Source: Peptococcaceae bacterium (GTDB taxonomy: Bacteria; Bacillota; DSM-12270; Thermacetogeniales; Thermacetogeniaceae). From it: a DNA stretch of 64,000 nt. The stretch covers positions 1 through 64,000 of the forward strand of contig JAHFCR010000004.1 of assembly GCA_023249405.1 (NCBI GenBank). Direction: 5' to 3'. Of the stretch, positions 25,655-31,637 are shown in pieces. The notes beneath the pieces were generated by a model. It saw only the letters and a program-made list of their open reading frames with translations, ran no database searches and was not told the origin of the DNA. The translations under genes were made by a program, and so were the position numbers. Numbering within the stretch: position 1 is the stretch's first letter; each line of letters opens with the position of its first letter.

Positions 25655-26290
25655 CTATTCATATTTTTGGACATCACAAATTTTATCATTATCAGAGTGG
25701 AAGCGGGTGGACACCTGGCAGGTAAATATTGTGGCTTAGGTCTAGCAGGTTTTCCCAACAGAGCGCCAAAACGTCGCCGTTTTGGTGGTTCCCCATTATG
25801 CCCTGTTCTGCTCTCGTCACCGAAAGCAGGGCCAGATTACCACTTAGTCCACACTTTAATCCCTGACAGGTTCTGGGTCAGCAGGCAGTCTAGGAGTTTT
25901 CCTCGGCGTTGTAACCGATTTCTAGCCTCTTTTGCAGAGCAGGTTTCGGAGTCATCTGCCAGCCTTTGCAAGCCGGCAGCGTTGACCGCCATCCACCAAC
26001 CCCACTCAAGGCAGGCTACACTGCACACAGCACTAACTGGTACCGCAAGCAGGTCAAACCCTAGCCGTAGTCTCTCCCACGTACTAGGACCTCCGCGAAG
26101 GAAGGGTCAACGCCCACATGCCATTGTAGATCGCCCTTCCTTCTTATCTCCCAGCACAAGCCCCCGACTGGGCGTCAAAAGCCTGCACCAGGAACTTCAT
26201 CGATGTGCCGGCGACGGATTTTTAGGCCCGCCTTTGAAACCAGCTACCCCGACTAGAATACTGCGCCACCCGTTCCTCTCCAATATTTAC
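25655..26290 (-). ncRNA. ole: OLE RNA (ornate, large, extremophilic RNA), approximate ends
   Basis: About 640 nt with no credible gene in any frame, transcribed with ispA and oapA. Size, orientation and neighbours (ispA upstream, oapA then dxs downstream) are those of the OLE RNA locus in anaerobic and extremophilic Firmicutes. Local stems are visible, for example CCAAAACG/CGTTTTGG near 25767-25786. OLE RNA forms membrane ribonucleoproteins with OapA and is linked to tolerance of alcohol, cold and magnesium stress. The 5' end is set just after a structured repeat; the 3' end before the oapA ribosome site. Ends are estimates. Confidence 0.85.
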
Positions 26291-27664: not shown

Positions 27665-27728
27665 AACGCGGGGGCGGTTCTGGCGTTTAGATGCCATGTT
27701 ATGAAACGCCAGAACCGTCCCCGCGTTT
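27665..27728. repeat. REP-like inverted repeat pair between xseA and xseB
   Basis: Two REP units face each other: 27665-27688 and 27704-27728, 24 bp with one mismatch, around a 15-nt spacer. Each unit has AACGC ends and a core GGGACGGTTCT. The right unit encodes the last nine residues of XseA, so the repeat has replaced the original C-terminus. Related units occur at 39671 and 39886. Confidence 0.85.
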
Positions 27729-28931
27729 CGTCTCTTCAACTTTGCAGCGCAAGCTTCCCTCGCTGAGGATCACTTCCAGGGGATCGCCTTCTTTGACAAG
27801 GAGGCTGCTCTGGATCAACCTGCCGCTGACCGGGTCCCGGCAGATACTGTAGCCGCGCCGCAATATCGCCAGGGGGCTCAGGCTGTCCAGCTTCTCTGCC
27901 AGCACCTGCTTCCGGTGGCTAGCCTGATCACGCAATAGCTGCATTTTATTGGTCAGTTGCAGGTGCAATAGCCTTAGCTCCTGTTTATGCTGGAACAGCA
28001 ACTGTTTAGGATAACGCCCCAGGTCCCGTTCGCCGATCTCCTGCAACTGCCGCTGTTTCTGTCTTAATATCCCCTGCACTGCGGACAGGATCAGGCGGTC
28101 CTGCAACTGTCGCACCCGGTGCTCCAGTTCCAGGTGCGAGGGCGCCACCAGTTCAGCGGCCGCAGAAGGGGTAGCGGCCCTGACGTCAGCAACCAGATCG
28201 GCAATGGAGTAGTCGGTCTCGTGGCCAACGGCGCTCACCACCGGATGGTGTAAGTGGAAAATCGCCCGGGCCACCTCCACCGTGTTAAATGCCCACAGCT
28301 CTTCCAGGGAACCCCCGCCCCGCCCGACAATGATCACGTCGATATCGGGCCGCTGATCCAGGGCCTCCAGAGCGGAGCAGATCTCCCGCGGGGCCTGTTC
28401 TCCCTGCACGGCGGCTGGAGCCAGCACGATGGCCATACCAGGAAAGCGACGCCGCATGACGGTTACCAGGTCATGCCACGCCGCTCCGTTCTGTGAAGTG
28501 ACCACGCCTACTTTACGCGGCAAATGAGGCAGCGGTTTCTTATGCTCCTGCTCAAACAAGCCCTCAGCCTGCAACTGCTCCTTGAGCCGGCAATAGGCAG
28601 CGTAGAGGGCCCCCATGCCGTCCGACGCCAGTTCTTCGGCGTATAGCTGATACTGCCCATCCCGTTCATAGATACTGATACGGCCACGTACGATCACGCC
28701 CATTCCATTGGACGGCAAGAAATTCAACTGGCTGCAGCGGGAGCGGAACATGACGCAACGCATACTGCTGGCAGCATCTTTCAAGGTGAAGTAGAGGTGG
28801 CCGGAGGTATGATGCTTGCAGTTGGAGATCTCGCCGCGGATCCAGATGCTGTTCAGCAGCGCATCCGCCTCCAGCAGATCCCTCAGGTAACCGGTCGCCT
28901 CCCCCACGCTGTAGATCCTGCGAATCACCAC
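27699..28931 (-). CDS. xseA: Exodeoxyribonuclease VII large subunit
   Basis: 410-aa subunit of the exonuclease that degrades single-stranded DNA. An N-terminal OB fold (SIWIRGEISNCKHHTSGHLYF) precedes the nuclease domain with GVVTSQNGAAWHD, VDVIIVGRGGGSLEELWAFN (residues written here approximate the family motif; the sequence has DIDVIIVGRGGGS) and AVGHETDYSIADLVADVRA. A helical tail ends in KRGDGSGVS, which is encoded by a REP unit. The start is GTG 28931 after GAGGCG, just after the folD stop. Confidence 0.95.
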   Translation of the reverse strand: MVIRRIYSVGEATGYLRDLLEADALLNSIWIRGEISNCKHHTSGHLYFTLKDAASSMRCVMFRSRCSQLNFLPSNGMGVIVRGRISIYERDGQYQLYAEELASDGMGALYAAYCRLKEQLQAEGLFEQEHKKPLPHLPRKVGVVTSQNGAAWHDLVTVMRRRFPGMAIVLAPAAVQGEQAPREICSALEALDQRPDIDVIIVGRGGGSLEELWAFNTVEVARAIFHLHHPVVSAVGHETDYSIADLVADVRAATPSAAAELVAPSHLELEHRVRQLQDRLILSAVQGILRQKQRQLQEIGERDLGRYPKQLLFQHKQELRLLHLQLTNKMQLLRDQASHRKQVLAEKLDSLSPLAILRRGYSICRDPVSGRLIQSSLLVKEGDPLEVILSEGSLRCKVEETKRGDGSGVS

Positions 28932-28933
28932 CG

Positions 28934-29788
28934 CTACGCCTCAGCCGTATCCTTGGCGGCGATGAGTAAATTGTAGATGAGCATGATAATCCGGACCGGC
29001 CCCAATCCACCCGGTACCGGGGTGATCGCTCCGGCCACTTCCACGGCGCTGTCGTAGTCCACATCGCCGACCGACTTGCCGTCCACCCAGTTGGAACCGG
29101 TATCGATGACGATCGCCCCCGGTTTTAGCATGTCACCGGTGATCGCCCGCGGCCTGGCGACTTCGGTGACCACGATGTCCGCTTGCTTGGTGTAGGGGGT
29201 AAAATCCTCGGCAGGGTTGACCAGGGTCACGATGGCGCCCTTCTCGAACAGCATCAAGGTGATCGGCTTGCCGACCTCGATGCCGAAGCCAACTACCACG
29301 GCATGCTTGCCTTTGAAATCGATCCCCTGCTTTTCCAGGATCTTGATGCAGGCATTGGCGGTAACTCCCCAGTAACACTTGTTGCCAATCAACAGATTCC
29401 CAAGATTGACCGGGTGCAGGGCATCGATGTCCTTCACCGGCAGAATGGCATCCAGGACCTGGTTCTCATACTGGTGCAGATGATGCGGCAGTGGAAGCTG
29501 AACCAGGATCCCGTGCACGCCGTCATCCCGGTTCAGTTTATCGATCAGGGCCAGCAACTGCTCGATGTCGGTATCCTCGGGAAGGTGGTGGGTCTCCGCA
29601 AAAGCACCCACGCTCTCGGCCGCCTTGGCCTTGGTGCGGACATACAGGGCGGAATCCTGGGCGCCTCCGACCAGGATCAGGGACATGCTGGGGGTGATCC
29701 CCTTCTGCTTGAGATCTGCGGTCTCCTGGGTCAACTGTTGCCTGATCTCCTCGGCGATCTCTTTTCCCACAATACGTACTGCTGCCAT
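28934..29788 (-). CDS. folD: FolD paralogue 1 (methylene-THF dehydrogenase/cyclohydrolase family)
   Basis: 284-aa FolD family protein. Active-site residues are intact: Tyr49 and Lys53 in ALYVRTKAKA, Gln97 in VQLPLP, Asp122 in KDIDALHPVN. The family PCTPxG is replaced by GVTANA, and the dinucleotide loop GxSxIVG reads VVGFGIEVGKP. By comparison with E. coli FolD (Tyr50, Lys54, Gln98, Asp121) the cyclohydrolase machinery is kept while cofactor binding looks altered. The start is ATG 29788, with GGAGG 9 nt upstream. A second FolD lies immediately upstream. A mainly cyclohydrolase role is inference. Confidence 0.88.
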   Translation of the reverse strand: MAAVRIVGKEIAEEIRQQLTQETADLKQKGITPSMSLILVGGAQDSALYVRTKAKAAESVGAFAETHHLPEDTDIEQLLALIDKLNRDDGVHGILVQLPLPHHLHQYENQVLDAILPVKDIDALHPVNLGNLLIGNKCYWGVTANACIKILEKQGIDFKGKHAVVVGFGIEVGKPITLMLFEKGAIVTLVNPAEDFTPYTKQADIVVTEVARPRAITGDMLKPGAIVIDTGSNWVDGKSVGDVDYDSAVEVAGAITPVPGGLGPVRIIMLIYNLLIAAKDTAEA

Positions 29789-29846
29789 TCGCATAACCCT
29801 CCTCAAATAAGTTCTTCAATTCAACTTGGCCAGCCTGATAAGGAAA

Positions 29847-29880
29847 GGAGAACTGGACCCCTTGCAGCATCCAGTTCTCC
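29847..29880 (-). terminator. Hairpin between the two folD genes
   Basis: Arms GGAGAACTGGA (29847-29857) and TCCAGTTCTCC (29870-29880), 11 bp, followed on the minus strand by TTTCCTT. It could be a partial terminator that lowers expression of the second folD. Confidence 0.45.
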
Positions 29881-29899
29881 GATGTAGACGGCTATTGAT

Positions 29900-30769
29900 C
29901 TAACCCTTTTTCTCGAGCTGCCACTTGGCTGCTTCAATCGTGTTCTTCATCAGGATGGCAGTAGTGGCAGTGCCGGCGCCGCCCGGAACCGGGGTGATCC
30001 AGGCTGCCTTCTCGGCAGCGATCTCGGTCTCCACATCACCGACGATCTTCCCGTCCTTGGTGGCGTTGATGCCGACATCGACGACGATGGCGCCCTCTTT
30101 GATCCAATCGCCCTTGATCAGGTGAGGCACGCCCACGGCCACAACCAGGATCTCCGCCCTTCTGACGTGAGACTCGGACAGACCGCGCTGGCCGGTGGCG
30201 ATATGGCTGATGGTAACAGTGCCGAAGGCATTCAGGAACAGCAGTCCTGCCGGTTTGCCCACGATGTCGCTGTGGCCGACAATCACTACCTCCTTGCCGT
30301 AGATGTCTACTCCGGTGGATTTTACCAGCTCGAAAGCGCCCAGAGCGGTGCAGGGAACCAGGCGTGGCTTGCCGAAGGTGACCAGGCCCATGTTGGTGGG
30401 AGTCATGCCCTCGACGTCCTTCTCGTAGGCGATGCTCCACTGGCAGACCTTGGCGTCGATCTGAGCCGGCAGGGGGGTCTGCAGAATGATGCCGGTGACA
30501 CCCGCGTCGGCGTTGAGGCCGGCGATGTGTTTCAGCAGCTGGTCCTGGGTCAGGTCCGCAGGCAGTTCCTGCAGCTCATACTTGATGCCGACAGCATCGG
30601 CAACCTTGCGCTGGGCGTTGGTGTATACGCGCGAGGCATCGTTCTGCCCCACTTGAACGGCGACCAGGCTCGGTGAAACTCCTTTAGCCTTTAAGGCTCC
30701 TACTTCAGCAGAAACTTCAGCCTTAATTTTTTCCGCCAGCGGTTTTCCTAACAATAATTGTGCAGCCAT
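29900..30769 (-). CDS. folD: FolD paralogue 2 with altered active site
   Basis: 289-aa FolD family protein. The NADP-binding loop IVGHSDIVGKP and PCTALG are near normal, and ITPVPGGAGTATTA ends the domain. The catalytic Lys of the family (E. coli Lys54) is Gln53 in RVYTNAQRKVA, and the substrate Asp (Asp121) is Glu120 in KDVEGMTP. Work on the human enzyme, from memory, showed that Lys-to-Gln at this position removes cyclohydrolase but not dehydrogenase activity. It may thus be a dehydrogenase that pairs with the downstream paralogue. ATG 30769 follows AGGGAGG. It is preceded by the nusB terminator, so it has its own promoter. Confidence 0.88.
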   Translation of the reverse strand: MAAQLLLGKPLAEKIKAEVSAEVGALKAKGVSPSLVAVQVGQNDASRVYTNAQRKVADAVGIKYELQELPADLTQDQLLKHIAGLNADAGVTGIILQTPLPAQIDAKVCQWSIAYEKDVEGMTPTNMGLVTFGKPRLVPCTALGAFELVKSTGVDIYGKEVVIVGHSDIVGKPAGLLFLNAFGTVTISHIATGQRGLSESHVRRAEILVVAVGVPHLIKGDWIKEGAIVVDVGINATKDGKIVGDVETEIAAEKAAWITPVPGGAGTATTAILMKNTIEAAKWQLEKKG

Positions 30770-31205: not shown

Positions 31206-31231
31206 CAAAAAAACTGGCTGTGATCAGCCAG
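31206..31231 (-). terminator. Intrinsic terminator after nusB
   Basis: Stem CTGGCTG/CAGCCAG (31214-31220 with 31225-31231) and a 4-nt loop, followed on the minus strand by TTTTTTTGTTTTT. The hairpin overlaps the nusB stop codon. It separates the Asp23/AmaP/nusB unit from the folD genes. Confidence 0.85.
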
Positions 31232-31637
31232 ATTCTACGGTGACTTCCTTGGCAATGCGGCCAAGAATTCCATTTATAAAGCGGGGAGCATCTTTGTGGC
31301 TGAAAATTTTAGCCAGTTCGAGGGCCTCGTCGATGGCCACGTTGACCGGAGTGGCAGGATAATACAACATCTCAAACAGGCTCATCCTCAGGATGTTGCG
31401 ATCCACATTGGCCATCCTGGGCAGATCCCAGTCAGTGGCGTAGCGTACGAGGTAATCATCGATCTGATGCTGGTGTTTCAGTGTTCCCTCTACCAGGGTG
31501 CGGGAAAAACCTGCCGTCTCACCGGTAACCCGGGACTCTTTCAGCATGTAGGCCAGGGCGCCTTCCGGCTGGGCCTTGCCCACATCGATCTGGAACAGAA
31601 CCTGTAAAGCTAACTCACGGGCCCGCCGCCTACCCAA
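31224..31637 (-). CDS. nusB: Transcription antitermination factor NusB
   Basis: 137-aa all-helical factor for rRNA antitermination. It starts GRRRARELALQVLFQIDVG, which is the boxA RNA-binding N-terminus, and ends with the family core NVAIDEALELAKIFSHKDAPRFINGILGRIA (positions about 100-130). It is last in the unit Asp23-AmaP-DUF2273-nusB, before a strong terminator. Confidence 0.96.
   Translation of the reverse strand: MGRRRARELALQVLFQIDVGKAQPEGALAYMLKESRVTGETAGFSRTLVEGTLKHQHQIDDYLVRYATDWDLPRMANVDRNILRMSLFEMLYYPATPVNVAIDEALELAKIFSHKDAPRFINGILGRIAKEVTVESG

Follow-up and report, generated by a model that had tools for sequence, protein, structure and literature searches.

A tandem pair of FolD homologues predicted to divide methylene-THF dehydrogenase and methenyl-THF cyclohydrolase activities between them

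Introduction

Two adjacent folD genes in a 64,000-nucleotide stretch of DNA from a Peptococcaceae bacterium (the window) encode proteins, FolD-1 and FolD-2, whose types have undergone losses of conserved residues that are complementary and conserved. Judged from their sequences, it is likely that FolD-2 is an NAD-dependent dehydrogenase and FolD-1 a cyclohydrolase-only FolD, and that the two jointly do the work of one bifunctional FolD.

Genome annotation assumes that every FolD carries out both reactions. If our reading is true, a FolD subfamily of syntrophic and acetogenic anaerobes would be a pure cyclohydrolase with a pure NAD-dependent dehydrogenase as its partner, the cofactor bookkeeping of energy-limited Wood-Ljungdahl metabolism would change, and the state of Y, K, Q, D and the GRS loop would predict the activity of each FolD. 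Having the two half-reactions separated in nature would also be useful for the unsettled question of the catalytic Lys and its role in each of them. The same division of labour appears, by its residue patterns, to recur in several other anaerobes. What is already known is the Thermacetogenium phaeum pair, as two subunits, and the existence of dehydrogenase-only FolDs with a separate cyclohydrolase. To our knowledge no natural cyclohydrolase-only protein of the FolD family has been described; we regard this novelty as provisional, our literature search having covered open-access sources.

The folD locus

Both genes are transcribed from the minus strand in the order FolD-2, FolD-1, xseA (Table 1), and their boundaries are those given in the initial annotation. 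The FolD-1 start is the ATG at 29788, with an in-frame TTG further upstream at 29806. No minus-strand terminator-like site was found in the gap between the two genes, and one follows nusB at 31231-31214. The identities of xseA and of the upstream NusB were confirmed in the window. FolD-1 and FolD-2 are 38% identical and are the sole FolD genes found in the window's genome, which is 98.8% complete. Whether another canonical FolD exists there had been raised at the outset; the search of this genome returned none beyond the pair, the third match being a weak one of 23 bits.

Table 1. Features of the folD locus, in window coordinates. Positions of the two motifs were calculated from codon numbers.
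Feature	Position	Strand	Description
xseA	27699..28931	-	exonuclease VII large subunit; two bases past FolD-1
FolD-1	28934..29788	-	FolD family, Y-K-Q-D whole; dinucleotide site degraded (PCTP to GVTA, GRSxIVG to GFGIEVG); predicted to act solely as a methenyl-THF cyclohydrolase
FolD-1 dinucleotide loop	29264..29290	-	GFGIEVGKP, codons 167-175
Intergenic gap	29789..29899	-	111 bases, FolD-2 stop to FolD-1 start
FolD-2	29900..30769	-	FolD family, PF00763 and PF02882; catalytic Lys to Gln53, Asp to Glu120; predicted to be an NAD-dependent methylene-THF dehydrogenase that lacks the cyclohydrolase
FolD-2 active-site motif	30605..30634	-	SRVYTNAQRK, codons 46-55; Gln53 for catalytic Lys
nusB	31224..31637	-	upstream neighbour of FolD-2

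An Rfam search revealed no folate riboswitch upstream of the pair. Its sole match in the window was a full-length OLE RNA (RF01071, 484 bits) at 25691-26285 on the minus strand, in the same gene cluster as the folD pair and between the gene of a polyprenyl synthetase and an ORF of 193 aa that matches no Pfam family. Elsewhere in the window's assembly (G000), acetyl-CoA synthase (PF03598) and MetF (PF02219) are encoded on contig C119; formyl-THF synthetase (PF01268) was not found in G000, which reflects either an assembly gap or a real absence.

Catalytic and cofactor-binding residues

We aligned both proteins to the FolDs of E. coli and P. aeruginosa, without gaps around the active site, and placed them in an alignment of 179 proteins. 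FolD-2 has Tyr49, Gln53 (human Lys56), Gln97, Glu120 (human Asp125) and PCTA, so that the substitution of Gln for the catalytic Lys and of Glu for the substrate Asp noted in the initial annotation is borne out in both alignments. FolD-1 retains the full catalytic set that had been attributed to it (Tyr49, Lys53, Gln97 and Asp122), and the alignment likewise agrees with its replacement of PCTPxG by GVTANA and its GFGIEVG loop. The cyclohydrolase set of a bifunctional FolD (the Lys of YxxxK, Gln and Asp) is thus present in FolD-1 and incomplete in FolD-2.

A lysine from elsewhere in FolD-2 might have taken the catalytic position, which would have undone this assignment. We rejected a displaced Lys standing in for Gln53. 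No gap interrupts the alignment to solved FolD structures along the helix that carries Tyr49 and residue 53, and the model of this helix is confident (mean predicted pLDDT about 95); therefore no other Lys replaces the catalytic one. The predicted models of both proteins match FolD structures at a TM score of about 0.9 by Foldseek. Among the best 25 of 30 NCBIfam FolD models, both score under the cut-off, FolD-2 with at best 288.9 bits against 355 and FolD-1 with at best 286 against 421.

The cofactor sites diverge in different ways. The NADP loop of FolD-2, initially taken to be normal, in fact reads GHSDIVG; His replaces the Arg that contacts the 2'-phosphate (human R173), and Ile replaces Ser197. 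These are the exceptions in an NADP site (GRSxIVGxP, HS, AVG, DVGIN) that is mostly kept, and both are nearly invariant across the FolD-2 clade in the 179-protein alignment. GHS in place of GRS, together with S197I, suggests that FolD-2 uses NAD rather than NADP. In FolD-1, on the other hand, the residues at R173, I176, S197, T199, A215, C/V236 and I238 (human numbering) have been replaced, and the NADP site of a bifunctional FolD is not present. By homology FolD-1 is not an FchA (PF04961, FTCD_C) either; the FTCD_C matches in the window's genome map to C152 and C164, not to the contig of the pair. By its residues FolD-2 would be classed as a dehydrogenase-only FolD with a second candidate cyclohydrolase gene in the genome.

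Mutants of known FolDs bear on this assignment. The human Lys-to-Gln mutant (K56Q) reportedly loses cyclohydrolase and keeps dehydrogenase activity, and E. coli FolD R191E is said to keep the cyclohydrolase and lose the dehydrogenase, with the reverse said of K54S. A documented parallel for the human result is E. coli FolD K54N, which has about 19% of its dehydrogenase left and undetectable cyclohydrolase (PMC5688156).

Conservation of the complementary losses

As a yardstick we used 72 canonical Firmicutes FolDs, picked for Y-K-Q-D and GRS, a choice that itself makes those columns invariant and leaves only the remaining columns as independent evidence for this group. Y52, K56, Q100 and D125 (human numbering) are whole in all 15 proteins of the FolD-1 type. 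In the same 15, R173 is lost (to W, H, F or D), I176 has become E or D, and A215, which is invariant among the 72 canonical proteins, has become E; acidic residues thus occupy two cofactor positions throughout. The third glycine is gone in four of them. FolD-1 of the Thermacetogenium family, to which the window belongs, mostly retains G-x-S-x-x-x-G-x-P, and these proteins may bind a cofactor weakly.

In the FolD-2 type, K56 is Gln in 30 of 30 proteins (10/10 from the Thermacetogenium family, 17/17 from outside the Firmicutes, and three further Firmicutes members), and the Asp is Glu in 29 of 30 (26 of the 27 family and non-Firmicutes proteins, plus the three further Firmicutes). The glycines of the cofactor site, Ser174, His196 and Gly237 are retained. 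When we checked whether the pair itself is conserved, both genes turned up in 17 of the 20 genomes of the family; this search gave no FolD match in the remaining three, which are fragmented MAGs. Relative to same-genus relatives both genes have dN/dS of 0.11-0.13, indicating purifying selection. Because both are under purifying selection and the pair is kept in these genomes, the residue losses are not random.

These data bear directly on the idea that FolD-1 is catalytically inactive, a pseudo-enzyme that is either regulatory or in decay, for which the disappearance of several canonical cofactor residues could be cited. Purifying selection on FolD-1 and a folate site intact in every member argue against it, as do the high abundance of its T. 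phaeum counterpart and its presence in a Moorella strain that has lost the native folD; we find this idea scarcely credible.

Partnership with FchA

In the non-Firmicutes genomes searched (Omnitrophota, Poribacteria, Dependentiae, Vermiphilus, Armatimonadetes), the FolD-2 type is the only full FolD. An fchA-type gene adjoins it in 21 of 25 of these genomes, lies on another contig in three, and was not found in one; nearly all of these FchA proteins carry the PxPGGGS motif. In the window's family the slot of fchA beside the FolD-2-type gene is occupied by FolD-1.

We then scored 134 Firmicutes genomes, each at least 90% complete, for a Y-K-Q-D FolD and for a strong FchA. Sixty had a Y-K-Q-D FolD without FchA, 51 had FchA without Y-K-Q-D, 23 had both, and none had neither. 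The FolD-1 type is the sole Y-K-Q-D FolD in nine genomes without FchA (G001, G004, G010, G061, G099, G102, G138, G165 and G167), and in six of the split genomes (G061, G099, G102, G138, G165 and G167) there is no PF04961 match at all. The survey counts are not independent, since loss of Y-K-Q-D in single-FolD genomes amounts to only two changes on the tree, and Fisher's p = 4e-19 for the 134 genomes overstates independence. A test of catalytic loss against FchA on independent pairs had only one or two usable pairs and is powerless, so that no phylogenetically corrected significance can be claimed. The weight of the survey lies in an exceptionless pattern and in the occurrence of FolD-1 in several families, f16 included. 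Three genomes (G118, G151, G179) have three PF04961 matches each and no FolD match at E below 1e-20.

An FchA homologue is encoded in the window's genome and in T. phaeum, inside histidine-degradation operons, and the strong FchA copies examined in the family all sit in such operons, with urocanase or formiminotransferase. FchA homologues occur in only part of the family; G001, G003, G004 and G010 (at least 94% complete) have weak, divergent matches only. We therefore rejected the idea that FchA serves the family as its general partner, the strong copies examined belonging to hut operons and strong copies being missing from several near-complete genomes. A divergent PF04961 paralogue without the PGGGS motif is encoded at L145 7679-8290 (contig C164 of the window's assembly), and most genomes of the family have similar weak matches. 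Methenyl-THF can also hydrolyse spontaneously, and E. coli mutants live without cyclohydrolase (PMC5688156), so the absence of FchA is by itself no proof of replacement.

These observations leave room for a scheme in which both proteins are dehydrogenases, FolD-1 with altered cofactor use, and the cyclohydrolase step falls to the hut-operon FchA or the divergent PF04961 paralogue or proceeds spontaneously. Loss of R173 and S197 would also fit a switch to NAD, FchA homologues are at hand in the window's genome, and spontaneous hydrolysis is known. The changes at I176 and A215 in all FolD-1 proteins and the missing third glycine in four exceed an NAD switch, however, the six split genomes have no PF04961 match at all, and the Y-K-Q-D set kept in every FolD-1 would have no explanation. 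We regard two dehydrogenases as very unlikely.

Origin of the pair

The initial annotation saw in the pair one bifunctional enzyme split in two. As an account of origin this does not stand. In a tree of 55 proteins FolD-1 and FolD-2 fall in separate clades (support 100/100 and 100/99, respectively), and FolD-2 groups with FolDs partnered by FchA (98/90). Tandem duplication in place was likewise rejected, as a tree holding the family's FolD-1 and FolD-2 together gave an AU p of 6e-78.

Wherever we read the gene neighbourhood in split genomes, Moorella excepted, FolD-1 has nusB upstream and xseA downstream, at times with intervening genes. From this location between nusB and xseA we infer that FolD-1 represents the native folD, cut back once a dehydrogenase-only FolD had been gained, and that FolD-2 is the incoming relative of the FchA-partnered FolDs. 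A native bifunctional folD at nusB-folD-xseA would then have been reduced to a cyclohydrolase once the newcomer was in place; this order of events is read from the tree and the gene positions.

Moorella thermoacetica DSM 21394 has the pair as well. Of its native folD roughly 66 codons at the 3' end remain, immediately upstream of xseA and 92.6% identical in nucleotides to a congener; the pair lies on this contig too, at a distance of about 8 kb (L193 1-17001). Both Moorella proteins nest within the Thermacetogenium-family clades, and there is no PF04961 match in this genome. Taken together, the truncated folD, the nesting and the lack of PF04961 indicate that the pair appears to have replaced the bifunctional FolD in this strain.

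Split pairs outside the window's family were found in G099, G138 and three genomes of family f16, where the FolD-1 loop reads GDSFDLIIP and the two genes are unlinked. In G099 (L253 8779-12887), FolD-2 and FolD-1 flank two ORFs with NfnA/NfnB-like domains in one cluster. G098 has a different tandem of unusual FolDs (L188 778-2514): in one, Tyr has become His and Lys has become Ile, and in its neighbour the folate site is disrupted. This genome encodes a third FolD as well, next to fchA. The FolD-1-type and dehydrogenase genes are unlinked in G102, G061 and G167, and in the latter two the dehydrogenase partner comes from another FolD lineage (YVRGI).

This scatter of gene arrangements matters for the proposal that FolD-1 and FolD-2 are subunits of an obligate heterodimer with shared or channelled activities. 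FolD is dimeric in known structures, the genes are adjacent in the window's family, both proteins are predicted to fold like FolD monomers, and the T. phaeum literature speaks of two subunits (PMC6895022). The unlinked genes in G102, G061 and G167 count against an obligate complex, and the other-lineage partner in G061 and G167 indicates that no fixed partner is required. A FolD-1/FolD-2 heterodimer is possible and not needed; in its obligate form we consider it rather unlikely. Still more doubtful is the combined scheme in which the native enzyme lost its redox half following the arrival of an NAD-linked FolD, giving the cyclohydrolase-only FolD-1, and a heterodimer passes methenyl-THF between unlike subunits and so fixes NAD as the cofactor of this Wood-Ljungdahl step.

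Proposed division of activities

Our preferred reading remains a dehydrogenase and a cyclohydrolase working side by side. FolD-2 would oxidise methylene-THF to methenyl-THF with NAD+, its Rossmann site being kept while the 2'-phosphate Arg and Ser and the cyclohydrolase Lys are lost. FolD-1, with the folate-site Tyr, Lys, Gln and Asp kept and the cofactor site lost, would turn methenyl-THF into 10-formyl-THF or carry out the reverse, filling the place held by the unrelated FchA in other bacteria with a Lys-less FolD. We infer both activities, and the NAD preference of the window's FolD-2, from sequence. Of the initial proposal, the division into dehydrogenase and cyclohydrolase is thus strongly supported by conservation, co-occurrence with FchA and the published mutant; the NADP-type loop and the single ancestral enzyme are the parts that had to be given up. 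Our search of the open-access literature found no assay of either FolD-1 or FolD-2 protein alone.

Comparison with known systems

The orthologous tandem pair of T. phaeum is Tph_c16310/Tph_c16320, which we recognised because its proteins are 54% and 50% identical to the Moorella FolD, the same values as published for Tph_c16310 (54%) and Tph_c16320 (50%). Published work assigns this pair the methylene-THF dehydrogenase/cyclohydrolase role in the Wood-Ljungdahl pathway, with NAD dependence in extracts (PMC6895022, PMC6436200, PMC12674515), and treats the proteins as two subunits (PMC6895022, PMC12674515) or as bifunctional enzymes; the excerpts of these three papers say nothing of catalytic residues being lost in one protein and cofactor residues in the other. 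In T. phaeum fractions, methylene-THF dehydrogenase is reported to be far higher with NAD+ than with NADP+, the printed values being implausibly high in absolute terms. Both T. phaeum proteins of the pair are abundant.

The monofunctional MTD1 of yeast (1EDZ) is likewise a dehydrogenase-only, NAD-linked FolD homologue, very distant from the pair (46 bits to FolD-2 and 23 bits to FolD-1), and we know of no FolD-1-like partner for it. With bifunctional FolD/MTHFD1 (E. coli 1B0A, human 1A4I) the window proteins share the fold and two Pfam domains; FolD-1 matches the folate-site residues and FolD-2 the Rossmann glycines, yet each, unlike the bifunctional enzymes, is without residues needed by one of the two activities. 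Methylene-THF dehydrogenases paired with a separate FchA are known from acetogenic Clostridia, Thermoanaerobacter kivui and Acetobacterium woodii; FolD-2 shares one supported clade with FolDs that have FchA as partner. Common to those systems and to the window is a FolD short of the full Y-K-Q-D set accompanied by a second cyclohydrolase protein, a predicted one in our case; what differs is that the second protein here is itself a FolD homologue, FolD-1, rather than FchA.
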